Source of the DNA: Lacipirellula limnantheis
GTDB lineage: Bacteria > Planctomycetota > Planctomycetia > Pirellulales > Lacipirellulaceae
Assembly (NCBI RefSeq): GCF_007746075.1
Contig: NZ_CP036339.1
Location: forward strand, 2,118,885 to 2,182,884
Length of the DNA: 64,000 bases
Direction: 5' to 3'
Part shown: in pieces, positions 40,393-57,836 of the stretch
Layout of the letters: each line of letters starts with the position of its first letter
Numbering within the stretch: the stretch's first letter is position 1
Notes under the pieces: model-generated
What the model was told of the DNA's origin: nothing
The model's input: the letters and a program-made list of their open reading frames with translations, nothing else
Database searches by the model: none
Program-made: the position numbers and the translations under genes

Positions 40393-42459
40393 ATGCGTGA
40401 ATTCTTGCTCGGAATGTGGTTAGCTATCGCTGTCGTTGCGGCCGGCCCGGCTGTTCGCTCCTTTGCCGACGAGTCGCCTGCGAAGGACGAGAAAGTCGTC
40501 GCGGCCGAGAAGTCCGCAAAGGGTGACGACAAATCCGCCGACGAAGCGAAAGACGCGGACAAAACCGAAGCATCCGACAAGGACAGCGACAAGGACGAGG
40601 CCGACGACAACGCCGCCAAGGACGAAGCGAAGGCCGAAGCCAAGAAATTGAAGGAGAAGAAAGAAGCCGCTAAGGCCGAAGCAAAGGCCGACGCGGACAA
40701 GAAAGCAGCAGCCGAGAAGAGCCCCGCCAAGGACGGTGAGAAGAAGGAAACGAAGGCGGCCGAGAAGAAGGTTCGCATCGCGTACATCATCATCGATGGC
40801 GCCCTGCCGGAGTCGCCCGGTGAGATGTCGCTCTTCGGCGATCTTGGCGTCGATCTTCGCAAGACCATGGCCCGGATTGAAAAGGCGGGGGACGACGAAG
40901 CAATCGCCGGCGTGATCCTGCAAATCGACGCCGCCCCGGGTCGCGGCAAGCTCAATGAACTTCGCAGCGCCATCAAGCGGGTTCAAGGCAAGGGGAAGAA
41001 GGTCTACGCCCTGCTCGAGTCGGCCATGGGCCCGCAGTACCAGCTCGCCTCGGCCTGCGATGAAATCATCCTCCCCGAGTCGGGCGAAGTCCTGCTACCG
41101 GGCATTCGGGCCGAGTTCTCGTTCTACAAGGACCTATTCGCGAAGGTTGGCGTCGAAGCCGACATGATGCACGTCGGCGACTTCAAAGGCGCCGCGGAAC
41201 CCTACACTCGCGACAGCCTCAGCGAGCCGGTTCGCAAGAATATGACGGCGCTAATCGACGACCTGTACGATGAGATGTTGACCACCATCGCATCGGATCG
41301 CGACATCAAGATTGAGGATATTCGCAAGCTCGTTGATCAAGGCCTGCTGATGGCGGCCGAAGCCAAGGAAGCGGGCCTAGTCGATCGAATCGCGTATCCC
41401 GACCAGTTCCGCGATTCGCTGCAAAAAGAGTACAAGGCCGACAAGCTGGTCTACGTCGAGAACTACGCGAAGCAGAAAGTCGACACCGACTTCAGCGGCC
41501 CGATGGGAATGATGAAGCTCTTCCAGTCGATGATGGGCGAAGGGCGTTCTGGCAGCGGCGACAGTGCGCCGAAGATCGCCGTCGTCTACGCCGTCGGCCC
41601 GATCATGAGCGGCAAAAGCCAGAGCAGTCTCATGGGCGGGACGTCGATGGGCTCCACCACCATCGTTGAAGCGTTGCAAGAGGCCGCGAAGGACGAAACC
41701 GTCAAAGCGATCGTTCTCCGCGTCGACAGCCCCGGCGGATCGGCCCTCGCCAGCGACCTGATCTGGCGGCAGACGCAAGCCATCGAGAAGCCGATCATCG
41801 CCAGCATGGGCGATGTCGCCGCCAGCGGCGGATACTATATCTCCATGGGCGCCGACCGCATCTTTGCCGAACCCGGAACCGTCACCGGTTCGATCGGCGT
41901 CGTCGGCGGCAAGCTGGCGATGAAGGGCGTTTACGACAAGCTTGGCATCGACACCGAGTCGATCTCGCGCGGCGAGAACAGCGGCATCTTTTCGACGACC
42001 CACAAGTTCTCGGATTCGGAGCGGAAGGTCGTCGAACGCATGATGAAGGTGGTTTATCAGCAGTTCACCTCCAAGGCGGCCGAAGGTCGCAAGATGAAGC
42101 AGGAAGACCTCGAGAAGCTCGCCGGCGGTCAGGTTTACACCGGACGCGTGGCCAAGCGGCTCGGCCTGATCGACGAAGTCGGCACGCTGCGCGACTCGAT
42201 CCAAGCTGCTAAGCGACAGGCTGGGCTCGATCCAGACAAGAAGGTTGAACTGATCGTTTTGCCGAAGCCGGAGAATCCGTTGGAGGCGCTCTTCGGCGGG
42301 AATATGGACGCCGAACGAGAAGCCGAGGCACGGATGGTTGCCGGCCTCGCGTCTTTCGCACCCGAGTTGCGCGGCGTCCTGCAGCATGCACTGCAGCTCC
42401 GGCAGGTGATGCGCGAACCAGTGGCTCTCATGATGCCGTATTGGTTCGAGATCAAGTAA
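40393..42459 (+). CDS. sppA: Signal peptide peptidase SppA, long form, with charged linker
   Basis: 688 residues. A signal peptide or anchor (1-25) is followed by about 100 residues of Lys/Asp/Glu/Ala repeat (27-126). Two SppA/crotonase-like domains follow. The catalytic dyad is split between them as in E. coli SppA: Lys265 in HVGDFKGAAEPYTRDSLS and Ser478 in GDVAASGGYYIS. LRVDSPGGSALASDLIW and GSIGVVGGKLAM also match. It degrades leftover signal peptides in the membrane. The charged linker is unusual in size. Confidence 0.93.
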   Translation: MREFLLGMWLAIAVVAAGPAVRSFADESPAKDEKVVAAEKSAKGDDKSADEAKDADKTEASDKDSDKDEADDNAAKDEAKAEAKKLKEKKEAAKAEAKADADKKAAAEKSPAKDGEKKETKAAEKKVRIAYIIIDGALPESPGEMSLFGDLGVDLRKTMARIEKAGDDEAIAGVILQIDAAPGRGKLNELRSAIKRVQGKGKKVYALLESAMGPQYQLASACDEIILPESGEVLLPGIRAEFSFYKDLFAKVGVEADMMHVGDFKGAAEPYTRDSLSEPVRKNMTALIDDLYDEMLTTIASDRDIKIEDIRKLVDQGLLMAAEAKEAGLVDRIAYPDQFRDSLQKEYKADKLVYVENYAKQKVDTDFSGPMGMMKLFQSMMGEGRSGSGDSAPKIAVVYAVGPIMSGKSQSSLMGGTSMGSTTIVEALQEAAKDETVKAIVLRVDSPGGSALASDLIWRQTQAIEKPIIASMGDVAASGGYYISMGADRIFAEPGTVTGSIGVVGGKLAMKGVYDKLGIDTESISRGENSGIFSTTHKFSDSERKVVERMMKVVYQQFTSKAAEGRKMKQEDLEKLAGGQVYTGRVAKRLGLIDEVGTLRDSIQAAKRQAGLDPDKKVELIVLPKPENPLEALFGGNMDAEREAEARMVAGLASFAPELRGVLQHALQLRQVMREPVALMMPYWFEIK

Positions 42460-42546: not shown

Positions 42547-44172
42547 ATGCGGCGTCTGCCCTTAAAGATCGGTGTGCGCCGCCGTATCACAGCGATGGCA
42601 GCGCTGCTGGCTTTACTGCTTGCATTCGATTCCGACAAGACTTTGCCGCCCGTTAAGTCGGGCGCTCAAGCGGCGGAGATCGTGCAACGGTCGACGCCCG
42701 CAGAAACCGCGGGCGCCTCGGCCGACGTCGAACGAGGCCGGACGCTGGCCGCCAAGTGGTGCGGCAACTGTCACTTAGCGCCCGAGCCCAGCGACCTCCC
42801 TCGCGATCGTTGGCCTTACATCATCAAATGGATGGGCAACTACCTCGGCCACCCGAATATAGACGATGACGTCAAGAACTTGATTTATCCGACGCTCGTC
42901 GCCACGAAGCCGTTCGTCACGGCCGAAGAATTGCGCGCCATCCAGGACTATTACATGTCGGCGGCGCCCGCGGAAACTGAACCGGCCTTTCCGCGAAATC
43001 AGCCGCTCCCCACTACAGCGCTTTTCTCGCCGCAACGGTGGCCCGGATACCTCAAGCCGGCGACGGCGTCTTTGGTCGCCATCGATGCGCCGCGACGACG
43101 CCTTTACGTCGGTACCGCCGATGATTCGATGCTCCGCATTTTTACCCAGGATGGGCTTCTGTATAAGCAAATTGGCTGCGACGAGAATCAAGCGGTGGAG
43201 GTTCGCCCAACCGCTGACGGGTTCGACTTAGCCCTGCTCGGCGACATCGGCATCGACCGCCATCGTGGCACAGTCCAAAAGATTGAAGGCTTCGGTCCGC
43301 AGGCAGGGCCGCTCCGCGCCTCGCGCATCGTGGCCGGTTTTCATCGAACCAGCGGCGCCGCTTGGGGCGACCTCGACCGGGATGGTCACGAGGACGTCGC
43401 TTTGGCTGGCTTCGGCGACTATGCCGACGGAGCGCTTTCATGGTTTGCCGTCAAGCCAAACGAGGAGCCGATTCGGCGCGACCTGCGCATCGGCTCGGGG
43501 GCCCTCGACGTCGTGGTGGACGACGTGGACCAGGACGGTGACTTGGACATCCTAAGCCTCATCGCTCAAGGGCACCAGGAAATGCTGTGGTTCGAGAATG
43601 ACGGGACCGGACATTTCCAGTCGCGGCCACTTTGGAAGGAGCGGTCGGTTTACGGCTACAACTCGTTTCAATGGACCGATTTCAATGGGGACGGAAAGAA
43701 GGATCTTGTCGTCGCCAGCGGGAATAACATGGAGATGCCCGATCCTCCCATCAAGCCAGTGCACGGCGTGTACGTGTATCTGCAAACAGGTCCGATGGAG
43801 TTCACGAAAACGCACTTTCTGCGCATGGACGGCGCCGCCAAAGCATTAGCCAATGACTACGACAACGACGGCGACGTCGACGTCGCCGCAATTTCGGCTT
43901 ATCCCGATTGGCGATCCGACGCGCCAGCCATGTTTGTATTGTTCACCAATGACGGAATGGGCGGATTCGCGCCCTCTACCATTCCGGCTTCCTTCTCCAG
44001 TCAAGCGATCACGATGGACGCGGGCGACCTCGATGGAGACGGCGACGTCGATCTAGCAATTGGCGGCGCCAGTTGGAAGCCGCTTCTTCCGGAACCTTGG
44101 CTAGCAGGCGCCGCCAAGCGAATTGAGGAGGTCCCGCCGGTTGTCGTCTTGTGGAACCAGTCCGTGCGCTAG
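42547..44172 (+). CDS. Exported c-type cytochrome / FG-GAP (VCBS) propeller protein
   Basis: 541 residues. A signal peptide or anchor (10-30) is followed by a small cytochrome c domain: C72-G-N-C-H76 in AAKWCGNCHLAPEP, with Met137 (DYYMSAA) or Met96 as possible sixth ligands. From about 150 to 535 an integrin-alpha-like propeller follows, with Ca-loop repeats DLDRDGHEDVALAG, DVDQDGDLDILSL, DFNGDGKKDLVVAS, DYDNDGDVDVAAIS and DLDGDGDVDLAIGG. This domain pairing is common in planctomycetes, with unknown substrates. First gene of the three-gene exported set. Confidence 0.85.
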   Translation: MRRLPLKIGVRRRITAMAALLALLLAFDSDKTLPPVKSGAQAAEIVQRSTPAETAGASADVERGRTLAAKWCGNCHLAPEPSDLPRDRWPYIIKWMGNYLGHPNIDDDVKNLIYPTLVATKPFVTAEELRAIQDYYMSAAPAETEPAFPRNQPLPTTALFSPQRWPGYLKPATASLVAIDAPRRRLYVGTADDSMLRIFTQDGLLYKQIGCDENQAVEVRPTADGFDLALLGDIGIDRHRGTVQKIEGFGPQAGPLRASRIVAGFHRTSGAAWGDLDRDGHEDVALAGFGDYADGALSWFAVKPNEEPIRRDLRIGSGALDVVVDDVDQDGDLDILSLIAQGHQEMLWFENDGTGHFQSRPLWKERSVYGYNSFQWTDFNGDGKKDLVVASGNNMEMPDPPIKPVHGVYVYLQTGPMEFTKTHFLRMDGAAKALANDYDNDGDVDVAAISAYPDWRSDAPAMFVLFTNDGMGGFAPSTIPASFSSQAITMDAGDLDGDGDVDLAIGGASWKPLLPEPWLAGAAKRIEEVPPVVVLWNQSVR

Positions 44173-44363
44173 GACCGCTGATCAAGGCAACGACGGCATG
44201 CATCCACGTGATCGGCAGCTTAATTTTCATTCAATTGCCAATAAGATGCGTTTGGAATCGAAGTGCTAGGCGTTACACGACGGATCGACGATAATGCCGG
44301 CCGTTGACGATGGACCGTCATCGTCGAGTTCCCCAGTTCACTCTCCCGTACCGGAGCGGAAAG

Positions 44364-45725
44364 ATGGCAATCAAGCGTCCCTTCGAACGTCTGGTGGTCG
44401 GAATCGCCTTAATGGCCTCTGTTGAGTCCACCGCTTTGGCAGAGACTGCGCTGGACGAGCAAGCAGTCGTCGAGGTCGCAGCCACTGCGGATGAAGCCAA
44501 CGATAAGGATGACGCGACAGGGGAGGAGCCGACCCATAAACAATCGGCGCTGATCAACATCAATGCGGAGGGTCTACCGCAGGCCAGCGTGCAATGCTTC
44601 TGCCTCCTCGGAGATGATCGGTTGCTGGCCGGTTGTTCCGGCGCCAAGAACGAGATTCGGGTCTTCGACGATCAGGGAACATACGTCGAATCTTTTGATC
44701 TCCCGGTGGCTCCGGAAGCCATCAACATCGCGCCCGATGGAACGATTCTAGCGGCCGGCGAAGGAGAACTGTTGCGTCTCTCCGCTGACGGGAAGGTTCT
44801 CGCCACAGCCGAGTCGCCGCATGCGGCGGCCATTCGAGACGCGAAGGAAGAAGTTCGCAAACAAACGATTGAGCAGCACCAAGAGCAGGCGAATATGCTG
44901 CCTCAGATGCTCGAGGCTTACGATTCCGCGATGAAAGAACTCGAGAAGCAGATTGCCCAGCTCGAAGAGCAAGGAGAGGATGGAAAGGATCAACTCCGAG
45001 CCTCCAAAGAGATGATGGAGTCTTACAAGCAGGCCAAGGAGCAGATGAAGGAGGAGTACGGCGACAACGCCAAAGAGTTGACCGAAGAGCAAGTTGAAGA
45101 GATGGTCACATCGGCGATTCAGTACAAGCTGAAGGTCGCCTCGATTAGCTCTGACGGCGAGGCGGTGTTCGTCGCCTGCGGCATGCCTGCCGGCTATGGA
45201 TACGCGGTCTGGAAGTTGACTCCAGACTTCACTGACGGCAAGGAAATCGTGTCAGGGCTTAGCGGTTGCTGCGGCCAAATGGACGTCCAAGCGAATGCTG
45301 ACGGCGTCTTTGTCGCTGAGAACTCCCGCAAGCGAGTCCGCCGGTTTGACCCCGAGGGAGAATCGGTATGCGATTGGGGCAAGGCGTCCGAGGGAATCGA
45401 CGGCTTTGGCAGTTGTTGCAATCCGATGAATCTGGCCTTCGGAGCGAACGGCTCGGTCTACACGGCTGAAGATACGACTGGACGCATCAAGCGTTATTCG
45501 AACGACGGCAAGTTGCTCAGCGTCGTTGGAGCCGCCGACGTCGTCCCGGGCTGCAAGAAGGTTTCCATTGGCGTCGACTCGACGGGAGACCGGGTCTACA
45601 TGCTCGATATCACCCGTAACAACGTGGCCGTGCTTTCACGGGTAAATCCAGACCCAAAAGAGCCGCTGGCGAACGCCACTTCCGCGAGCGGAAACTTCTT
45701 GTTGAAGCTCTTCGGGTTGGAATAG
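44364..45725 (+). CDS. Exported NHL-like beta-propeller with cysteine pairs and a coiled-coil insert
   Basis: 453 residues from the ATG at 44364, preceded by CGGAAAG. A signal peptide covers residues 1-27. Propeller blades appear at about 65-150 and 255-430. Between them a long charged helical hairpin (about 152-252) is inserted. Cysteines fall at corresponding blade positions: VQCFCLL (78, 80), SGCCGQMDV (302, 303), GSCCNPMNL (351, 352) and PGCKKVS (397), so they probably lie together at the propeller face. Metal, heme or disulfide function is possible. I know no named family for this combination. Confidence 0.75.
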   Translation: MAIKRPFERLVVGIALMASVESTALAETALDEQAVVEVAATADEANDKDDATGEEPTHKQSALININAEGLPQASVQCFCLLGDDRLLAGCSGAKNEIRVFDDQGTYVESFDLPVAPEAINIAPDGTILAAGEGELLRLSADGKVLATAESPHAAAIRDAKEEVRKQTIEQHQEQANMLPQMLEAYDSAMKELEKQIAQLEEQGEDGKDQLRASKEMMESYKQAKEQMKEEYGDNAKELTEEQVEEMVTSAIQYKLKVASISSDGEAVFVACGMPAGYGYAVWKLTPDFTDGKEIVSGLSGCCGQMDVQANADGVFVAENSRKRVRRFDPEGESVCDWGKASEGIDGFGSCCNPMNLAFGANGSVYTAEDTTGRIKRYSNDGKLLSVVGAADVVPGCKKVSIGVDSTGDRVYMLDITRNNVAVLSRVNPDPKEPLANATSASGNFLLKLFGLE

Positions 45726-45819
45726 CTTCGTCCCACCGGCATACGATCATAGAGCGGCGGCACGACTGTCCCGTCAGGTCGTCGCTGCACTTTTCCATAT
45801 AGTGCTAAGGAGGCCTGTC

Positions 45820-47964
45820 ATGGGTCATTGCAGAATTCCAACCGTTGCCTGGGCGATGCTGGCTGCCCTATTTGCCGCGGCGCCGCTGCGAGCGCCTGCC
45901 GACGACGCCAAGTCCGCCGAGGGCCCCATTTCCATGCTCGTGATGGATCCGCTGGCTCTTCCCCTATCGTGTCCCTGCGTTGCGGGCTATGCCCAGCGAA
46001 AGTACGAAGTCCTTGGAGATTATCTCAGCAAGGAACTTGGCCGACCAGTCGAGATTACGTTCGCGGAGTCGATCAAGAACGCGCTCGACAAAGAGCACGT
46101 CGACGACATTCACTTGATCATTGGCAAAGACTCGGTCGTGCGTGCACAGAGCAAAAAGCACAAGTACGAACCGTCGCTGCTGGCTCGACTTGTCGGCAAA
46201 GATGGTAACGTGAACCAAACGGGACTCATTGTCGTGCGTTCTGCTGACCCGGCGAAGACGCTCTCTGAACTCAACGGTTATCGAATCTTATTCGGTCCGC
46301 CAGAGTGTGATGAGAAGTTCAGCGCCGCCCGCGAGTTGCTCGAGGAGGCGGGCGTTGACGTGCCCGCGGAGAAGGAGGCCGAGATCGCTTACGCCTGCAG
46401 CGACGGAGCCTGCATGATTATCGATTGGGGCGATAAGATTCACGGGGCGGCCGTAATTTCCAGTTACGCTGCTCCGCTACTTGAAGGTTGCGGCACGATC
46501 AAAAAGGGTGATTTGCGGGTGATTGGCGAAACGAAGCCCGTTCCCTTCGTCGCTGCATTCGCCACTAACTCCCTTGACAAGGAAGAGCAAAAGAAAGTGC
46601 AGGACGCTCTGCTGAAGGCCGGCAAAGCTCCCCGAATGCTGGCGGCGCTCGAAACAATGCTTGGCTTCGTGCCAGAAGACTTCAAACCAATCGTACCGGC
46701 GAAGCCCGTGATCAAAGCGGCCGAAAAGCCGACGGCCACGCAACCATCTTCCGGCGAAGCCAAAACATCCGCCGACGTCCGTTCGCCGACGATCCGGGCG
46801 TGGCCCGGGTGGCTCGGACCCGAGCGGAACGGCCGCGTTGAATGGCTGCCAGATTCGCTGCCCGCGAAGCTCGATATCGTCTGGTCTCGTCCCTTTCTTC
46901 GCCCCGGCATGGGCGGCCTCGCGGCCACCGACCGACATGTGTTCGTCGGCGACCGCGACGCCGCCAACCGGGCCGACGTCTTCCGCTGCCTCGATGCAAC
47001 CAATGGCGAGGAGCGCTGGTCGATTACTCAACCAGCGCTGGGACAGCTCGACTACGACAATCTTCCCCGAGCCACGCCCCTCATCTACCAAGATAAGGTT
47101 CTCTTCTTCGGCGCCTTCGGCGACCTTGTTTGTGCGGAGATGGAAACTGGCCGCGTCGCGTGGCGAATGAACGTCCGCTTGAGGTTTCTAGCCCTCGACA
47201 AATTGCCTTGGGGGACATGCTCGTCGCCGCTCTTGGTAAATGATATGGTCGTTGTTAATCCCGGGGCTCCACGAGCGTCGATTGCCGCCGTGGACGCGGC
47301 GACAGGCGAAACTCGTTGGCAAACGCCGGGCGAGCCGCAAGGCTACGGCTCGTTAATTGCGGCGACATTGGGAGGCGTTCGACAAATCGTCGGTCATACG
47401 CAGTCGACGCTATGCGGCTGGAATGCGGAAACAGGTGTACGTCTTTGGTCGCTCAAACCGCGTACGGACGGTGATTTCAACGTGCCGACGCCCATCGTCA
47501 TTGGCGACAAGTTGTTGGTCGCCACCGAGAATAACGGCGGTCGCCTCTACCGTTTTCGAGAAGGAGGTGAAATCGAACCCGAGCAGGTTGCCGTTAACAC
47601 GAAGCTGAATCCGCAAATGAGCACGCCGATCGCCGTTGGTCGACGAGTGTTCTGCGTCAACCGCCGCTTAGATTGCTTCGACGCGGCCGACGACTTGAAA
47701 AACGTATGGACAGCTCGCGACCGCGCCTTCTGCGAGTTCGGGGCGGCCATCGCGACCGATTCTCGCGTTCTCGTGCAGGGACGTGGGGGCGAGCTAGTAT
47801 TGATCGACGTTTCCGGGCCTGAACCGGCGATCGTCTCACGCAGTCTACTTACGACCGACAAGGTGGCAGCCGATGCAGAGCTGCTGACGTTTCCCGCCCT
47901 GGTAGGAAGTCGCTTGTTTCTCCGGAACGAAACGGCCGTAGTCTGCATTGAGCTTGGCGGCTGA
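45820..47964 (+). CDS. Fusion of PhnD-like binding domain and PQQ-type beta-propeller, cysteine-rich
   Basis: 715 residues from the ATG at 45820, with a perfect AAGGAGG 6 bases upstream (a GTG at 45802 is in frame but would place the Shine-Dalgarno inside the gene). A signal peptide (1-27) is followed by a PhnD/phosphonate-type binding domain (about 36-290): ISMLVMDPLALPL, YLSKELGRPVEITFAESIKNAL and SELNGYRILFG. It carries six cysteines (51, 53, 163, 193, 198, 224), where PhnD proteins usually have few. After a Pro/Ala/Thr linker (295-322), WPGWLGPERNGRVEW opens a BamB-like PQQ propeller (to 715). Substrate unknown; no permease or ATPase follows. Confidence 0.85.
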   Translation: MGHCRIPTVAWAMLAALFAAAPLRAPADDAKSAEGPISMLVMDPLALPLSCPCVAGYAQRKYEVLGDYLSKELGRPVEITFAESIKNALDKEHVDDIHLIIGKDSVVRAQSKKHKYEPSLLARLVGKDGNVNQTGLIVVRSADPAKTLSELNGYRILFGPPECDEKFSAARELLEEAGVDVPAEKEAEIAYACSDGACMIIDWGDKIHGAAVISSYAAPLLEGCGTIKKGDLRVIGETKPVPFVAAFATNSLDKEEQKKVQDALLKAGKAPRMLAALETMLGFVPEDFKPIVPAKPVIKAAEKPTATQPSSGEAKTSADVRSPTIRAWPGWLGPERNGRVEWLPDSLPAKLDIVWSRPFLRPGMGGLAATDRHVFVGDRDAANRADVFRCLDATNGEERWSITQPALGQLDYDNLPRATPLIYQDKVLFFGAFGDLVCAEMETGRVAWRMNVRLRFLALDKLPWGTCSSPLLVNDMVVVNPGAPRASIAAVDAATGETRWQTPGEPQGYGSLIAATLGGVRQIVGHTQSTLCGWNAETGVRLWSLKPRTDGDFNVPTPIVIGDKLLVATENNGGRLYRFREGGEIEPEQVAVNTKLNPQMSTPIAVGRRVFCVNRRLDCFDAADDLKNVWTARDRAFCEFGAAIATDSRVLVQGRGGELVLIDVSGPEPAIVSRSLLTTDKVAADAELLTFPALVGSRLFLRNETAVVCIELGG

Positions 47965-48138: not shown

Positions 48139-48211
48139 TGCCCCCGGCAGGAATCGAACCTGCGACCAACGGTTTAGGAAACCGCTGCTCTATCCCCTGA
48201 GCTACGAGGGC
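48139..48211 (-). tRNA. tRNA-Arg (anticodon CCU)
   Basis: A cloverleaf is readable on the minus strand. The acceptor arms are GCCCTCG and CGGGGGC, the D-arm is GCTC..GAGC, the anticodon arm GCGGT-TTCCTAA-ACCGT (anticodon CCU), and the T-arm GCAGG-TTCGAAT-CCTGC. The discriminator base is A. CCA is not encoded. It reads AGG arginine codons. Confidence 0.95.
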
Positions 48212-50361: not shown

Positions 50362-51252
50362 CTAAGCCGCTTTCTCGTCGGCGGGAAGCACATCGACGTT
50401 GACGCCCATGCTGTGTTCGCCGCCGCCGACAAAGACGCCCTGGATGGGGCAGACGTCGCTGTAGTCGCGACCCCATGCAATGGTGATGTGAGCGTCGCCA
50501 ATCAAGGCGTTGTTCGTGGGATCAAAGTCGACCCAACCAAGGGGGCCGCAATGGACTGACGCCCAGGCGTGCGACGCGTCGGCGCCAATCATCCGCGGTT
50601 TTCCCGGGGGCGGAATCGTGCGGAGGTAGCCGCTCACATAGCGACTCGGAAGCCCCATGGACCGCGCGCAGCCGATCGCCAAATGCGCAAAATCTTGGCA
50701 AACGCCGCGACGCAGCCGCAATAGTTCCTCCAGCGGCGTATGCACCGTCGTCGCCTTGGCGTCGAACTGGAAATCGCGATGGATCCTGGCGGTCAGATCG
50801 ACGATCGCTTCTAGAATTGGCCTACCAGCTGGGAAGCTAGGGGACGCATAGTCTCGCAACTGGGCCGAAGGCCTCACGCGAGGCGAGCGGAGCGTCAATT
50901 GGTAGATAGAGAGGTCCGCGCTCGTTGCCCCAGTGATCGACTGTCGCGCCGCGACTTCCCAGGTGAGCGACTCGCTGGGCGTGAGCTGCGGCGTTGGCAA
51001 GACTTGGACGACGCTTCGCGCCGTCACCTCCAGCCCGTTGTGCGACCCTTCGATCGAAAAGTAGTCGACGATATTGCCGAACCAATCAGTACGACTCGTC
51101 ATGAACGCCGGCTCAGGCACGATCTGCAGTCGGTACTCAGCGCACACCTGGCGCTTCGAGGCGCGCGGCGCCAAGTGGAGCATGTTGTGACAGACGGGCG
51201 CGGCTTCCGCGTATGCGTACCAGGTTCGGTGCTTGATTGTGTACTTCATCAT
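50362..51252 (-). CDS. Transglutaminase-like protein of the ATP-grasp/alpha-E cluster
   Basis: 296 residues without a signal peptide, so cytoplasmic. The N-terminal beta domain (KYTIKHRTWYAYAEAAPVCHNMLHLAPR) is the bacterial transglutaminase N-terminal family. The core has the triad Cys185 (RRGVCQDFAHLAIG), His228 (DASHAWASVHC) and Asp244 (GWVDFDPTNN). It is third in an operon with the fusion protein (9-base gap) and the large transglutaminase. In this context it probably hydrolyses or transfers an amide made by the ATP-grasp partner. Confidence 0.92.
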   Translation of the reverse strand: MMKYTIKHRTWYAYAEAAPVCHNMLHLAPRASKRQVCAEYRLQIVPEPAFMTSRTDWFGNIVDYFSIEGSHNGLEVTARSVVQVLPTPQLTPSESLTWEVAARQSITGATSADLSIYQLTLRSPRVRPSAQLRDYASPSFPAGRPILEAIVDLTARIHRDFQFDAKATTVHTPLEELLRLRRGVCQDFAHLAIGCARSMGLPSRYVSGYLRTIPPPGKPRMIGADASHAWASVHCGPLGWVDFDPTNNALIGDAHITIAWGRDYSDVCPIQGVFVGGGEHSMGVNVDVLPADEKAA

Positions 51253-51261
51253 GAAGCGTCG

Positions 51262-53781
51262 CTAGTTGTTCGCTAGTCTCTGCGCCGAGCCGCTGTGGAA
51301 GAAGTACCGATGAGACACAGCGTCCGAAAGCTTCGGCAACGTCGTATCGATGGTCGTCAATAACGAATCTAGCGGCTCCTCGTCGCCTGATTCGTACGCC
51401 CGGGCGATCGCCAGCGGATCGGAGCGCCGAATAAGGTGCAGCAGCGAAGCGGCGAGTCGCTCCTCCGTGACTTGGCCAGGGACGACGGACTCCCGCGGCA
51501 ATTGCGCCGCGTGCGAAGTACATTCTACCAACTGAAATGCCATCGATCGTGGATTTGTTTCGTCTGTCATTAGCAGATCGAGTACCGCCCCCAACTGGAA
51601 CCGCGAGTAATACCGCGACCGGTACGTCATTAAGCTGTCGGAGACTTCCAGCAGCGATTCAAGTGCGGCCGGATCGCTGCCGCCGCCCTCGGCGACGACG
51701 GAGCGAATCAACTGCGACGCTTGCAGCGTGCGCTCCAATCGCCGGCCAAAGTCGAGGAAGCGCCATGCGTGGGTACGAGTCATTCCTTCGGCGAATTGGC
51801 CGGTAAGCGCCGCCAGGCTTGCCAGCAGGCCGTCTACCTTCACGAGCATATCGAGAAGACCGTCGTCCGACTTCACTGGCTGAAACTCGTCGTTGAGTTC
51901 GCGAATGATTCGCCAGGTGTCGAGTGAAATGAGGTCCCGCACCGTGGCTGCCAATTGGGCGAGATTTGCCACGGTCGAGCGCAGCGTGCCGGGCGTCTTA
52001 TCATCGAAAACCGCCGCTGGCAGGAGCTTTTCCAGGGCCGGCATCTGCACCTTGATCTCTTCGACGACGTAACCAGGCTCGATCTGTCCTAATTCAGCAA
52101 GCACGCGGATCAGTAGTTGAAGCTCCGGGATTCGCTCTGCATCCTGTTCGCTTGTCAAGCGCAGAGCAACGGCGCGAATCAACTTGCCGAGCGACTCGGC
52201 GCGCACCGACTGACGTCCCAGCCAAAAGAAATGCTCCGCCGCGCGGCTGGGCAAATCAACGCCGCCGCGCCGTAGCGCCAGCGGTTCGTCGGGCGCCGAG
52301 AGCAATGTGACCGAACTGACGGGACCCTCGGCCAAGACCCAAGTGTCTTTACTCCGCTCGCCTTCCAGAAGCGACACGTCGAGCGGACCGAGCGCGGCGC
52401 TGACCCGCGCCAACCCGCCCGGCATCACCTCGTAGCTATCCGCGGTCGAAACGGCGAACGCCCGCAGGGAAATGTAGGAATGCGTGACGTCGTTCCCCGA
52501 CCAGACCGGCGCGGTGGAGCGGCGGACCCGTTCCTGAGCGACGTACGCTGCGGGATTCGCCTCGATCATCGCCGTCAATTCGCTGCGGCTCAGTTCCAAC
52601 AACCGGGAGTCGTTGACGCCCCGCCGACGATAGGCCGGGCGAATCGCCAACTCAGAGATACGGCTCAGCACATAGCGCTTGCTCTTGGGATCTCCGCACC
52701 ACCAGGTGGCGACGTTAGGCATCAACAACGGCTCGCTGAGCAACGTCTCGGATAGTTGCGGCAAGAACGCCATAAACAGCGGCGACTCTAGCAGTCCGCT
52801 TCCGAGGCCGTTCGCCACCGCGGCGTTGTTGCTCCGCAGGCATTGCAACAGTCCAGCGACTCCCATCGACGACGCATCGGAAAGTTCCAGCGGATCGCAG
52901 TTTTCGCTGTTCGGCCGTCGCAACAGCACGTCGACCGGCGACAGGCCGCCGAGGGTCTTCAAGTAGAGTCGATTGCGCCTTACGGCAAGGTCCCCCGCCT
53001 CGGCAAGGGTATAACCCAGGTAACGCGCGAGGAAAGCGTCTTCAAAGTAGTTTGCACTTCCCGCCAGCTGGCTTAGCCACACGATGCGTGCCCGCTCTCG
53101 GTCGGGCGCCAGACGGGCTAGATGTTCTTGAACGGAGATAAAATAGGGCGCGAGCCTCTCGACGCGGCATTCATGGATCACGTCGGGCAGCATCCGCGAC
53201 ATGGCGATGCGGTTCTGCAAGGCGAAGCCGGCGCCAGAAGGCGATTCGCAGCGATCGTCGAGCACCCACCAACGTCCCTCGGGTGAACGAGCGACGTCGG
53301 CGCCGTAAACGTGGAGGATGCGCTGCGGCGAAACTTCCGGCCGGCAGTAGGGCAGCAGGAACCCCGGATGACGAAACACAGCTTCCGCGGGAATGTGACC
53401 TGACTTGATAAGCTGCTGCGGGCCGTAGAGATCCTGCAGGACGAGGTCGAGGAGCGTCGCGCGCTGGCGCAGCGCCGCGGCGACGCCGCGCCACTCGGCC
53501 GCCTCGATTACCAACGGAAAGGCGTCAAGCTCCCAAGGGTGGCTTCTGGCGTGCGGGGCCTTCGGATCGGGGTAGGCCAAGCTGTTCTGCTGAAGCAATC
53601 GCTGAGCCTGTTCCCAACGGCGGCCAAACTCTGCGCGCGTTAACCCTTCCGTGGCTTCGATAAACTGCCGCCACGCAGGCCGCAATTCGCCCGGAGCGGA
53701 GAAGACTTCGTCGTACGACCCGCCCGCGCCTGCATAACCGCTGAACAGAGTGGCGTCCACGCGTAGATCTGAGCCAGGCAA
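51262..53781 (-). CDS. Circularly permuted ATP-grasp / alpha-E domain fusion protein
   Basis: 839 residues from a TTG at 53781; an in-frame stop lies just upstream, and a GTG seven codons later is the alternative. The N-terminal part (about 30-490) matches the circularly permuted ATP-grasp family: YDEVFSAPGELRPAW, LQDLYGPQQLI, VYGADVARSPEGRWWVLDDRCESPSGAGFAL. The rest (about 500-830) is the helical alpha-E domain: PSRAAEHFFWLGRQSVRAE to YRSRYYSRFQLGAVLDLLM. In many bacteria these are two adjacent genes. It is likely to form an amide or peptide bond with ATP. Confidence 0.92.
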   Translation of the reverse strand: MPGSDLRVDATLFSGYAGAGGSYDEVFSAPGELRPAWRQFIEATEGLTRAEFGRRWEQAQRLLQQNSLAYPDPKAPHARSHPWELDAFPLVIEAAEWRGVAAALRQRATLLDLVLQDLYGPQQLIKSGHIPAEAVFRHPGFLLPYCRPEVSPQRILHVYGADVARSPEGRWWVLDDRCESPSGAGFALQNRIAMSRMLPDVIHECRVERLAPYFISVQEHLARLAPDRERARIVWLSQLAGSANYFEDAFLARYLGYTLAEAGDLAVRRNRLYLKTLGGLSPVDVLLRRPNSENCDPLELSDASSMGVAGLLQCLRSNNAAVANGLGSGLLESPLFMAFLPQLSETLLSEPLLMPNVATWWCGDPKSKRYVLSRISELAIRPAYRRRGVNDSRLLELSRSELTAMIEANPAAYVAQERVRRSTAPVWSGNDVTHSYISLRAFAVSTADSYEVMPGGLARVSAALGPLDVSLLEGERSKDTWVLAEGPVSSVTLLSAPDEPLALRRGGVDLPSRAAEHFFWLGRQSVRAESLGKLIRAVALRLTSEQDAERIPELQLLIRVLAELGQIEPGYVVEEIKVQMPALEKLLPAAVFDDKTPGTLRSTVANLAQLAATVRDLISLDTWRIIRELNDEFQPVKSDDGLLDMLVKVDGLLASLAALTGQFAEGMTRTHAWRFLDFGRRLERTLQASQLIRSVVAEGGGSDPAALESLLEVSDSLMTYRSRYYSRFQLGAVLDLLMTDETNPRSMAFQLVECTSHAAQLPRESVVPGQVTEERLAASLLHLIRRSDPLAIARAYESGDEEPLDSLLTTIDTTLPKLSDAVSHRYFFHSGSAQRLANN

Positions 53782-53819
53782 TGGAAGTGTCCCGCCGCGG
53801 TCGAGGTCTCAACTGGTGA

Positions 53820-56800
53820 TTATCGGTTTCGGCGTAGATCGAGCGTTAATGGAAAATCGGGGTTCGGCTCATCTCGCGGCGGCACGATCGGTCCGCCGCG
53901 ATGCCCCATCTTGAAAAAGCGTGCATAACGGCGACTTTCAGCCTCGAAGGCGTTGATCGGGAACAACTCGGGATTGAGACCCCCCGGATGTCCGACGTGG
54001 TAGGTACACCCGCCCAGCGAACGGTTCATCCAACCGTCGACCAAATCAAAGGCCAATGGGGCATCGATCGGGATCGTCGGATGAAGACAACTTGGCGGTT
54101 GCCAGGCGCGATAACGCACGCCCGCGACGTACTCTCCTTCCGTTCCCGTTGGGTGGAGCGGCACCTTGCGACCGTTGCACGTCATGTAATGGCGCGTGTC
54201 GGTCATGCCCTGGACCAACACCTGCAACCGCTCCAGCGATGAATCGACGTAGCGCGAGGTCCCGGTCCCGGTCGCCTCTTCGCCAAGGACGTACCACGGT
54301 TCGATGGCTTTGCGCAGCTCGATCCTCATGCCGGCCTGAGAGAATTCTCCCATCCGCGGAAAGCGAAACTCGAAGTGGGCCTCGAACCATGCCTTGTCCA
54401 TGGCGTAGCCTGCTTGGCGAATCTCTTCGACGACGTCGTTGAAATCTTGCCGCACGAACTGCGGCAGCATGAAGCGATCATGCAACGACGTATCCCAATC
54501 GACTAACGTTGCGCTGTACGGCTTCTCCCAGAAGCGAGCGACGAGGCACCGCAATAGTAACTGTTGCGCCATACTCATGCGCCAGTGGGGCGGCATCTCG
54601 AACGCGCGGAATTCGACAAGGCCGAGTCGCCCCGTCGAACTGTCCGGCGAGAACAACTTGTCGATGCAAAACTCCGCGCGGTGCGTGTTGCCGGTGCCGT
54701 CGACCAGTAGATTGCGGAAGACGCGATCGACCATCCACGACGGGTAATTCCCTCGGTCGCGAATTTGCTCCATGGCAATCTGCAATTCGTACCGTGCATC
54801 GCGGCGGCCTTCGTCGACGCGCGGCGCCTGGCTCGTCGGGCCAATAAAGCTGCCCGAGAAGAGGTACGAAAGCGATGGGTGATTATGCCAATAGGCGAGC
54901 AGGCTCCGCAGCACGTCGGGGCGTCGCAGAAACGGGCTGTCCGCTGGCGTCGCCCCGCCAAGGACGACGTGGTTGCCGCCGCCGGTGCCGGTATGCGTGC
55001 CGTCGAGATCGAATTTCTCCGTTCCTAGCCGCGAATAGCGGGCGTCTTCGTAAACGCCCGAGGTGATCGCGACGAGCTCGTCCCAACTCTCGGCCGGGTG
55101 GACGTTCACTTCGATGACGCCGGGATCAGGCGTCACTTTGAAGTGGTTGATCCGGTGATCGTGCGGCGGCTCGTATCCTTCAATGACCACCGGCGTCCTG
55201 AATTGGGTCGCCGTTTCTTCAATGGCCGTGACGAGCTCCAGGTAATCTTCAAGCCGATCGAGCGGCGGCATGAAGAGGTGGATCACGCCGTCGCGCGGCT
55301 CGACGCAGAGGGCCGTCCGCACCATCCAGGCGGGGTCAGTCTGCTGCCCGCGGACGACGGCGCCGCCGCGCTGGCCAGCGAAGTCGTTGTTCCCGTTCTG
55401 CAGCCAGGGGGCGTGCGGTCCGCGGCCAGGTTCATGGCCGTTGCCTTCATGCACCCCGCCGTTGCCGGAAAAACCTTCGACAATCTGACCAGAGTAGTCG
55501 CCGAAGTAGGCGCCTTCCGGGCCCGTACCCCAACCGCCGCCGCCGCTCCATGCTGGCTGCAGCGTCTGAGCGCCGACGGCGCTTCGCGCCGCGATATTGT
55601 CGCGCATGCGCTGATACTGCGGCAATGGCTGTCGATCGGCGAACGGCTCCATCGCGTACCCGTACGATTCGATTGCTGGCCGTTTCGCCCACAGCAGCGA
55701 CTGAATCGGCAAACGAAAGCCCATCGGCGAATCGCCCGGCAGCAAGAACATCTCGTCGCTGCGGACAACCCACTCGCCGCTTTCCCAGTACGGATCGTCC
55801 GCCCACCAGACGCGGCGAATCGGCAGCGCACAGCCGACCGGCGACGTGATGCCTTGCTCAAAGACTTTGGCCATCCGCGCGCGGTCTTCGGCATTCTCCA
55901 GTTTTGAATCCCGCAGCGTGACGTTTGCCGGCAGCCGGCGCTCTTTCCAAGCGTAGTACAGGACATCCTCAAAACCGTCGATCACATGCTCCGGCTTCAC
56001 GCCCAAACGTTCGGCCAATGATTGCCCAAAGCGGCGGGCATCGTCGACCGTCTGCTCACCCTTCTTCGTCGGATCGGCGAAGAGCGACTCATCCCCCCAG
56101 ATCGGTTGGCCGTCGCGACGCCAGTAGCACTTCAGCGACCAGCGCGGGAGCGGTTCGCCCGGATACCATTTGCCTTGACCCAGGTGGAGCAGCCCCCCTG
56201 GCGCGAAACGGTGCTTCATGCGCGTCAACAGGTCGCCCGCCAGCCGCCGTTTGTTCGGTCCCATTGCGGCCGTTTTCCACTCGGCGCCTTCCATGTCGTC
56301 GATCGACACGAACGTCGGCTCGCCCCCCATCGTCAGCCGCACGTCGCCGGCCGCGAGATGGCGATCAACTTCTTGACCGAGCGCGTTGACCGCGACCCAT
56401 TCTTCATCGCTATACGGCTTCGTAACGCGCGGATCTTCGTGGATCCGCGTGATTTCCATGTGGAACTTAAACTCGCTCGCCGCCGCGGTTGCAGAGAAAG
56501 AGATGGGCGCCGCGCCAACCGGATCGGGCGTGCAGGCGAGCGGTATATGACCTTCGCCGCACATCAACCCCGAGGTCGGGTCGAGGCCGATCCAACCGGC
56601 GCCCGGCAAAAAGACCTCAGTCCAGGCGTGCAGATCGGTGAAGTCATGCTCGGCCCCGCTGGGGCCGTCGAGCGACTTTACGTCAGGAGTCAATTGAATC
56701 AGGTAGCCCGAGACGAATCGCGCGGCCAGTCCCGAACGCCGCAAAATGTTTACCAGCAGCCATGCTGTGTCGCGGCACGAGCCGCTGCGCTTCTGCAACG

Positions 56801-57320
56801 TCTCGTCGCACGTCTGCACGCCCGGCTCCATGCGGATCGTGTAGCTGATGTCGCGCTGCAGTTGACTGTTGAGTTCGACCAGGAAGTCGATCGTTCGGCG
56901 CTTGCGGCGATCGATCTTCCGCACGTACTCCGCCAGCGGCGAGCCCTCCATCGCAGGCGCCACATGCAGGAAGGGCATCAGGTCCTTCAGCATGTCGGGG
57001 CCGTACGAGAATGGAAACTCCGTCGCGTCGTCTTCCAGAAAGAAGTCGAAAGGATTGATGACCGTCATCTCGGCGGTCAGCGCCACCTCGACCGAAACAT
57101 GGTTCGCTGGCTTGGGGTGGACGATACGGGCTTGGAAGTTCCCGTACGGGTCCTGCTGCCAATTGAGAAAGTGACCTGCTGGTTCGATCCACAGCGAGTA
57201 CGCCGTGATCGGCGTCCGGCAGTGGGGGGCGGGCCGCAGCCGCACCACCTGGGGGCCGAACTCAACCAGTTCGTCGTAGCGGTACTCGGTGCGGTGATGG
57301 AGAGCGACTCGAATCGGCAT
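53820..57320 (-). CDS. Large transglutaminase / DUF2126 protein
   Basis: 1166 residues from the ATG at 57320 (family start PIRVALHHRTEYRYDELV). The N-terminal beta domain and a transglutaminase core with Cys182 (KRSGSCRDTAWLL), His231 (DLHAWTEVF) and Asp247 (IGLDPTSG) occupy the first 290 residues. The remainder, about 320-1166, is DUF2126: LTMGGEPTFVSIDD, PGEPLPRWSLKCYW, VEVNVHPAESWDE and LDGTHTGTGGGNHVVLGG. The last motifs recall glutamine-synthetase or ATP-grasp-like catalytic centres, so DUF2126 is probably an enzyme. First gene of the operon. Confidence 0.92.
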   Translation of the reverse strand: MPIRVALHHRTEYRYDELVEFGPQVVRLRPAPHCRTPITAYSLWIEPAGHFLNWQQDPYGNFQARIVHPKPANHVSVEVALTAEMTVINPFDFFLEDDATEFPFSYGPDMLKDLMPFLHVAPAMEGSPLAEYVRKIDRRKRRTIDFLVELNSQLQRDISYTIRMEPGVQTCDETLQKRSGSCRDTAWLLVNILRRSGLAARFVSGYLIQLTPDVKSLDGPSGAEHDFTDLHAWTEVFLPGAGWIGLDPTSGLMCGEGHIPLACTPDPVGAAPISFSATAAASEFKFHMEITRIHEDPRVTKPYSDEEWVAVNALGQEVDRHLAAGDVRLTMGGEPTFVSIDDMEGAEWKTAAMGPNKRRLAGDLLTRMKHRFAPGGLLHLGQGKWYPGEPLPRWSLKCYWRRDGQPIWGDESLFADPTKKGEQTVDDARRFGQSLAERLGVKPEHVIDGFEDVLYYAWKERRLPANVTLRDSKLENAEDRARMAKVFEQGITSPVGCALPIRRVWWADDPYWESGEWVVRSDEMFLLPGDSPMGFRLPIQSLLWAKRPAIESYGYAMEPFADRQPLPQYQRMRDNIAARSAVGAQTLQPAWSGGGGWGTGPEGAYFGDYSGQIVEGFSGNGGVHEGNGHEPGRGPHAPWLQNGNNDFAGQRGGAVVRGQQTDPAWMVRTALCVEPRDGVIHLFMPPLDRLEDYLELVTAIEETATQFRTPVVIEGYEPPHDHRINHFKVTPDPGVIEVNVHPAESWDELVAITSGVYEDARYSRLGTEKFDLDGTHTGTGGGNHVVLGGATPADSPFLRRPDVLRSLLAYWHNHPSLSYLFSGSFIGPTSQAPRVDEGRRDARYELQIAMEQIRDRGNYPSWMVDRVFRNLLVDGTGNTHRAEFCIDKLFSPDSSTGRLGLVEFRAFEMPPHWRMSMAQQLLLRCLVARFWEKPYSATLVDWDTSLHDRFMLPQFVRQDFNDVVEEIRQAGYAMDKAWFEAHFEFRFPRMGEFSQAGMRIELRKAIEPWYVLGEEATGTGTSRYVDSSLERLQVLVQGMTDTRHYMTCNGRKVPLHPTGTEGEYVAGVRYRAWQPPSCLHPTIPIDAPLAFDLVDGWMNRSLGGCTYHVGHPGGLNPELFPINAFEAESRRYARFFKMGHRGGPIVPPRDEPNPDFPLTLDLRRNR

Positions 57321-57836
57321 GGTGGCCAGCGGGGTCGGAGGCGGCAATGGGGGGAGTGCTGTCGACAGGTGCGGCCAGCGGGCGCCGCGATGTCCTGCCT
57401 GGGGGGCCGCCTAAAGCCCGCAGTCGTTAACAACGCGTCGTGCCTCAATATCCTGCGCTCTGTTTTGGCTTGCGCCAATTAGTAACCGCAAATTCGCCGA
57501 GATTTGCCGCCCGATGGCGCCCCCAACGACCAGGTTTCTGTCACGGGCGCCCAGGCGTCGGCGGGGCGCGGCCGGCGCCTGCAATCAAATTGCCGGTCGT
57601 TGAGCAGATTCTCTGTTTCGGCGGTCCGATTGACGCGGCAATTCCCTCTAAGGAGTTGGAGTCAACGCCTAGCCAGTAATCGTCATGTCGGCCATCCGGC
57701 AAGATTTCGGCCCGTCGTGCGATTAGTCCTACAGCAGCGGCGTTAGGTACAGACAATTTGGCCTGCGAAGCCATTTTGTCGCATGACGCCGTTGTCGAAG
57801 GCGAAGATCGCCTCGCTAGCGAATTGGAGGGGAACC
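57321..57836. other. Divergent intergenic region upstream of the transglutaminase operon
   Basis: Over 500 bases without a credible gene. It should hold the promoter of the leftward operon and that of the rightward binding-protein gene. I see neither a dispersed repeat nor a clear hairpin. The rightward gene has GGAGGGG just upstream at about 57825-57832. Confidence 0.5.

Follow-up and report, generated by a model that had tools for sequence, protein, structure and literature searches.

The stretch of DNA analysed here (the window; 64,000 nt of the 6.8 Mb genome of Lacipirellula limnantheis, contig NZ_CP036339.1) holds three consecutive open reading frames (ORFs) on the forward strand, which encode proteins of 541, 453 and 714 amino acids and are separated by gaps of 191 and 94 bases, exactly as laid out in a preliminary description of the locus. 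Coordinates are positions in the whole window and are collected in Table 1. A hydrophobic, signal-peptide-like N-terminal segment was read from the sequence of all three products, and Pfam matches together with AlphaFold2 models assigned them to three different kinds of propeller (FG-GAP, NHL and PQQ/BamB-like), in agreement with the exported propeller proteins described before. The first gene product matched FG-GAP repeats (E = 1.6e-29) and contains the heme-c motif CGNCH once, which bears out the c-type heme proposed for it. Propeller matches of the second product, the NHL protein, were weak in Pfam. The third product matched PQQ_2 (PF13360, E = 1e-21) and Phosphonate-bd (PF12974, E = 4e-25; 89 bits, above the gathering threshold of 27), the latter being the ligand-binding domain that had been noticed earlier.

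In its model, the NHL protein is an NHL propeller of six blades, with a helical/coiled-coil segment of about 100 residues inserted between blades 2 and 3 (predicted local distance difference test, pLDDT, 88.4), and a fold search with this model returned the NHL domains of Mei-P26, Thin and Brat (Z 28.4). The third gene product was modelled as a binding domain, a low-confidence linker of about 30 residues and a PQQ/BamB-like eight-bladed propeller (pLDDT 90.5). Judged by its sequence matches, the binding domain appears to keep the PhnD fold, and its closest PDB sequences are 5jvb and 5o2j. Fold matches of the propeller (Z 29–36) include BamB (Z ~32), tetrathionate hydrolase and PQQ alcohol dehydrogenases; its scores stayed below the cut-offs of the BamB equivalog (44.8 bits, cut-off 285.2) and of the full-length family PQQ_enz_alc_DH (TIGR03075; 29.4 bits, cut-off 480.05).

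Co-occurrence was assessed in 249 genomes of the class to which the window belongs, using Fisher tests that ignore phylogeny. Relatives of the PhnD-like protein were collected from one genome per species (GTDB r220), and the best 80 of the resulting 158 loci were fetched; a first genome set had provided 40 loci from species partly overlapping with these. Of the 249 genomes, 53 have the NHL protein and 54 the PhnD domain; 52 have both, one has only the NHL protein and two have only the PhnD domain (p ~5e-50). All three modules, NHL, PhnD and propeller, are present in 71 of the best 80 loci, always in this order, with the NHL gene on the strand of the PhnD gene in 72/72 loci and at a median spacing of 20 nt (nine loci show a 4-nt overlap). 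Eight loci are without the NHL gene, three of which start at a contig edge (L139, L142, L156). Nearly all relatives are planctomycete, the few exceptions looking like mislabelled metagenome-assembled genomes (MAGs); the family is sparse in the phylum beyond the class, and two loci (L133, Aeoliella; L161, Botrimarina) come from genomes of the window's family. A search for the cassette on plasmids gave zero matches, speaking against plasmid-borne spread. On these gene-order and co-occurrence data it is nearly certain that NHL propeller, PhnD-like binding protein and PQQ-type propeller form a planctomycete cassette, an extracytoplasmic unit made up of the second and third genes.

The FG-GAP gene was dropped as a member of this unit. 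Homologs were absent from the 120 homologous neighbourhoods; the gene was found in 27/249 genomes, was shared with the cassette in 8 (p = 0.20), and at E 1e-30 was unmatched in every other sampled genome of the window's family. The proposal that the three families co-occur and keep their order thus stands for the second and third genes and fails for the first. With the FG-GAP gene outside the unit, the only direct electron-transfer cofactor is removed from it. Further candidate partners were discarded likewise: a copper/N2O reduction link (NosZ in 5/249 genomes, the cassette in none of those), a PQQ alcohol dehydrogenase link (7/249 genomes over the cut-off, again none with the cassette), and a pathway shared with neighbouring genes. 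A PqqC search of the window's genome was empty, as were its controls. The combination of parts had been called undescribed, and no description was found in the papers searched, a coverage from which subscription journals are largely absent.

In the window, PhnD-like domain and PQQ-type propeller are encoded by one in-frame gene, as they are in 24 relatives, whereas in 51 of the 80 loci they are separate ORFs. At the end of the PhnD ORF, 51/51 split loci carry a run of eight to ten A; in the 50 loci with the run near the stop codon its length is nine in 43, eight in five and ten in two, and L180 has an A8 run further upstream of the stop. Cultured strains with the run include Rubripirellula obstinata CECT 8602 (A9) and Gemmata sp. 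IIL30 (A8). The usual junction reads GCA AAA AAA AAG TAG (AKKK-stop). The propeller ORF lies in the -1 frame in 49/51 loci and is open through the run in 51/51; translated from the run onwards, the shifted frame gives KKKV, and a median of 8.5 codons separates the run from the conserved WxGWRG motif at the start of the propeller; zero stops occur within 150 codons in 50/50 loci. An ATG precedes the WxGWRG motif in 0/50 loci (the first ATG follows at a median of 118 codons) and a GTG or TTG in 7/50; in L203, about 190 codons of the propeller frame are without a start codon of any kind. A signal-peptide-like stretch was seen before PhnD in 48/51 loci and before the propeller frame in 1/51.

On the coding strand of 557 kb of split loci, tracts of at least nine A occur 45 times at the junction and nowhere else. 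Genome-wide, such tracts are few in the six relatives checked: five have about 8–25 each and one has about 66. They include the junction in G051, G109, G137 and G232, and the 8.4 Mb genome G137 has nine or fewer others. The leftover A9 tracts of these four genomes are candidates for further slippage-expressed genes in Planctomycetota. As negative controls, the 3' ends of the NHL genes (0/72) and propeller-less PhnD paralogs are without the run. In the first genome set it was found in 26/29 split PhnD genes, the exceptions being two propeller-less paralogs (L106, L107) and L124 (G043). In L124 alone, PhnD and propeller share one frame with a single TAG between them and no A run, as would fit stop readthrough, reinitiation or an error. 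Another single exception is L144 (4380-4480; a Gimesia MAG), where a second frame break lies inside the propeller near an A7 and could be an assembly error. Assembly error as a general account of the frameshifts was dropped, as the run, frame and product come back in 51 loci, isolates included. Among the split genes L090–L209, 36/54 free PhnD proteins have KKK within the last eight residues, a lysine tail that may just follow from the A9 run or may itself have a function.

The in-frame relatives L146 and L152 carry A10 at the same junction spot; in all other in-frame genes, that of the window among them, the run is lost and the linker is longer. Mapped on the PhnD tree, fused and split states require 10 changes by parsimony, at least 5 of them on starred branches; such repeated interchange is as expected for physical partners. 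Taken together, the junctions make recoding in the relatives very probable. In the papers searched, recoding was unreported for these proteins, and the main text of a genome-wide survey of frame transitions does not mention them (PMC3711429).

Cysteines of the second and third proteins, highlighted in the preliminary description, proved invariant in relatives. In the PhnD-like protein C51, C53, C193 and C224 are each present in 80/80 sequences; in the NHL protein C302, C303, C351 and C352 are present in 71/71 and C397 in 70/70, next to M355 (69/71), H58 (63/69) and C80 (58/70). In the secondary structure of the model, the NHL motifs GCCGQM, SCCNPM and GCK each directly precede the innermost strand of a blade, in three blades that follow one another, and by blade register and alignment these thiols should ring the mouth of the channel. 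A paralog in the same genome (L010) is a plain NHL protein that lacks the CC motifs. The phosphite ligands of Te_PtxB, S130-T131-S132 and H160 (PMC5700983), align in the profile alignment with PhnD residues 163–165 and 195; in this family residues 163–165 are C/A/S, D/E and E (80/80), and residue 195 is mostly D/E. With the STS-H columns replaced, the oxyanion pocket would now be acidic and cysteine-flanked, and it is argued with moderate confidence that the PhnD-like protein is no longer an oxyanion binder of an ABC transporter. The best match to the PhnE permease in the window's genome, this being the only permease family searched, reached 29.2 bits (cut-off 216.7), so that with regard to PhnE the protein is an orphan binding protein. 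Both the PhnD fold and the NHL propeller carry sets of invariant cysteines, which points to a binding-site chemistry that the papers searched do not describe for either of them.

The following explanation is proposed. In the split relatives slippage would be programmed by the A run, RNA polymerase most likely adding one A, so that the cell would make two products, free PhnD ending in AKKK and a PhnD-propeller fusion. Since the propeller ORF has neither a signal peptide nor an upstream ATG, the propeller would be exported solely within the fusion. The core of the system is accordingly predicted from the gene structures to be a complex of binding protein and propeller, in which the propeller reaches the exterior only when fused, the window carrying the outright fusion. 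Held on its eight-bladed scaffold, the PhnD-like protein would bind a thiophilic metal(loid) ion, or its cysteines would serve as redox switches; the invariant thiols and the acidic pocket favour one or other of these roles. The NHL protein, with invariant cysteines aligned on successive blades, would act as a hub that partners the PhnD-propeller in handing over or sensing the ligand. Taken as a whole (cassette, slippage in relatives, thiophilic ligand or redox cysteines, propeller-mounted binder), this is somewhat more probable than not, and the metal(loid) ligand taken by itself is given an even chance. A narrower version is put forward tentatively: an envelope system in which polymerase slippage at A9 sets the proportion of free and propeller-mounted metal(loid) binder, with a CC-CC-C thiolate metal site at the mouth of the NHL channel and the fusion hard-wired in the window's clade. 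The redox-linked sensing or scavenging suggested earlier, extended to metals, remains plausible for the two cysteine proteins.

A weak hint at metals comes from neighbouring genes. In three genomes, propeller-less PhnD paralogs directly follow a gene for a CobW/G3E-type GTPase with a CFCC motif, and in L210 an ArsR-family regulator stands ahead of GTPase and paralog. At other loci CobW/G3E GTPase genes often adjoin genes for ArsR-family regulators or an aquaporin (MIP). The GTPase was dropped as a general partner, being widespread and, at the threshold applied, without a match in the genome of the window.

Several observations weigh against the proposed explanation. The proposed slippage is a feature of the relatives and not of the window locus, whose longest junction A run is four. 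Ribosomal -1 frameshifting would fit 49/51 loci too, and the RNA 3' of the run is slightly more structured than the control (mean z -0.98 vs -0.15). The invariant cysteines could simply form disulfides. The signal peptides of the PhnD-like proteins are mostly of the Sec type, with about 9/79 Tat-like, which argues against loading of a cofactor in the cytoplasm. The CobW-type GTPase occurs in 161/249 genomes and, at the threshold applied, was not found in that of the window. Finally, the genes flanking the cassette are neither conserved nor functionally enriched, a Pfam tally of 111 of them giving common planctomycete families only.

Among the alternatives, the one that survives best, although unlikely, holds that the cysteines are structural disulfides, that PhnD still binds a phosphorus oxyanion or an organic ligand, and that the propellers scaffold a nutrient-binding complex. 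Membership in PF12974, the phosphite binders 5jvb and 5o2j as nearest solved relatives, and four PhnD cysteines that could pair as two disulfides are in its favour; it has to contend with the replacement of STS-H by x-D/E-E and D/E, with the PhnE result, and with five strictly invariant NHL cysteines, two vicinal pairs on successive blades among them, an unusual pattern for disulfides.

Slightly less probable again is that split species produce the fusion by dnaX-like ribosomal -1 frameshifting on an A-rich heptamer (A AAA AAG/AAC). Every -1 locus offers a possible A AAA AA(G/C/A) slip site, mostly with the stop 4–9 nt past the run, and the fit to the -1 loci and the downstream RNA structure mentioned above point the same way. 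Polymerase slippage is nevertheless favoured, and probable if recoding is granted, because the run length, usually nine, is kept while the codon phase is not (three phases, with G or C next), because L148 with its A10 requires the opposite frame, and because upstream Shine-Dalgarno sequences are not enriched (3/50 vs 6/50 in a control window).

Sensing of arsenite or another metalloid in the manner of AioX, in which a protein of PhnD fold would bind As(III) with the help of cysteine and signal, is improbable. AioX combines the PhnD fold with a pocket cysteine, C106 (PMC5908839), and in one genome a PhnD paralog lies behind ArsR and CobW GTPase genes; Ser161, Ser163 and His192 of AioX are replaced in this family, however, and in the variable flanks no partner, a sensor kinase for example, is enriched.

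A phase-variable contingency site, at which replication slippage would set the fusion on (A10) or off (A9), is very improbable. The homopolymer tract itself and the in-frame A10 of L146 and L152 beside A9 relatives would suit it, but a run length so constant speaks against it: 43 of the 50 detected runs are exactly A9, nearly all in the same off frame, which is hard to reconcile with free variation, and the propeller, whose sequence is conserved, would be silent in nearly every species sampled. A redox-sensing system of all three genes, in which the FG-GAP c-heme protein would carry electrons, suggested by the adjacent same-strand position and heme motif of that gene in the window's genome, is contradicted by the co-occurrence data given above and has next to no likelihood.

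If recoding in the relatives is accepted, it has consequences for annotation. Gene callers would report the recoded protein as two, one exported part and a propeller that lacks a leader and looks 'cytoplasmic', and most of these propellers are therefore probably misannotated. To our knowledge, apart from insertion sequences, dnaX and prfB, few cases of recoding are conserved over many genera within a single phylum. The junction offers a direct and cheap test case for programmed polymerase slippage in Planctomycetota.

Table 1 Features of the locus in the window and of compared loci
Feature	Position	Strand	Remarks
NHL gene, first of the conserved unit	44364..45725	+	453 aa; start picked for GGAGCGGAAAG-ATG ribosome site
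Helical/coiled-coil insertion, NHL residues 152-255, between blades 2 and 3	44817..45128	+	AlphaFold2 model
NHL C80, conserved 58/70	44601..44603	+	alignment
NHL GCCGQMD motif, C302-C303, 71/71	45267..45272	+	precedes inner strand of a blade
NHL SCCNPM motif, C351-C352, 71/71	45414..45419	+	equivalent place, next blade
NHL GCK motif, C397, 70/70	45552..45554	+	equivalent place, following blade
Fused PhnD-like/PQQ-like gene	45820..47964	+	714 aa; AAGGAGG before ATG
PhnD-like (type II periplasmic-binding) domain, residues 36-283	45925..46668	+	PF12974; 5jvb, 5o2j
PhnD C51-P-C53, both Cys 80/80	45970..45978	+	alignment
PhnD C-D-E-K, residues 163-166; E165, K166 80/80	46306..46317	+	replaces S-T-S oxyanion loop
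PhnD C193-S-D195; C193 80/80	46396..46404	+	D195 at PtxB ligand-histidine position
PhnD C224, 80/80	46489..46491	+	alignment
Low-confidence linker, PhnD to propeller	46699..46788	+	in frame; longest A run 4
PQQ-type, BamB-like propeller, from WPGWLGP motif	46795..47961	+	PF13360, model
FG-GAP protein, one CGNCH	42547..44172	+	541 aa; neighbour only, outside unit
Propeller-less PhnD paralogs by CobW/G3E GTPase	L210:1105-2592 and L107:6248-8283 (G214); L106:7968-9979 (G129); L199:3438-5699

A scan for sigma-70-type promoters between 42300 and 48200 returned none, and terminator predictions were no better than those of shuffled sequences. Immediately beyond the cassette lies a tRNA-Arg (CCT) gene (48139-48211, reverse strand). 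Upstream, an ORF on the forward strand (40393-42459) encodes an SppA-like (S49-type) peptidase with an odd Lys/Glu/Ala/Asp-rich N-terminal extension of about 100 residues, as read from the sequence. On the reverse strand at 50362-57347, ORFs of 296, 839 and 1175 amino acids, in the same order as in L104, resemble a transglutaminase-like/alpha-E-like/large transglutaminase-like group by sequence alone.

Compared with PhnD/PtxB binders (PF12974; 5jvb, 5o2j), the PhnD-like protein shares the type II binding-protein fold, export and a recognisable sequence similarity; it differs in the loss of STS-H, the gain of acidic residues and four invariant cysteines, the attached propeller and a genome in which no PhnE was found. 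The AioX/ArxX/ArrX sensors of arsenic oxyanions likewise have the PhnD fold and a pocket cysteine and serve in sensing rather than transport. Those sensors keep their Ser/Ser/His ligands, unlike this family, and form part of an X-S-R regulatory module together with a kinase and a regulator; no conserved or enriched neighbour was seen here. The NHL protein is modelled with the fold of six-bladed NHL-repeat propellers, and the second propeller has the PQQ-type fold of BamB, tetrathionate hydrolase and PQQ alcohol dehydrogenases while scoring below every family cut-off.

For the junction, the closest parallels are Thermus dnaX, where slippage on A9 gives two products, and Shigella mxiE, where slippage on a U homopolymer is needed for the longer protein (PMC1088944). 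A conserved slippery homopolymer followed by an ORF in a shifted frame was found in the relatives as well (A8-A10 in 51/51, -1 frame in 49/51); what differs is that the run here links a propeller to an exported binding protein and is conserved over many planctomycete genera.

The overall arrangement most resembles the mycobacterial FecB-Rv3035 complex (PDB 9p3f), likewise a transporter-less binding protein on an eight-bladed PQQ-like propeller, in which FecB is an orphan binding protein acting in envelope biogenesis and not in import (PMC12802301). Rv3035 is among the best fold matches of the propeller (Z 34.8). FecB is related to iron-acquisition binders, and its sequence showed no relation to that of the PhnD-like protein; the pair is without an NHL partner or slippage and interacts with the arabinosyltransferase AftB. 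The physical joining is brought about here by gene fusion, in the window and 24 relatives, the arrangements being alike with no homology of the binding proteins implied. The repeated switching between split and fused genes provides strong comparative evidence for a complex of binding protein and propeller that parallels this recently described pair, and by analogy with it the PhnD-propeller would serve as a sensor or a scaffold and not in import.

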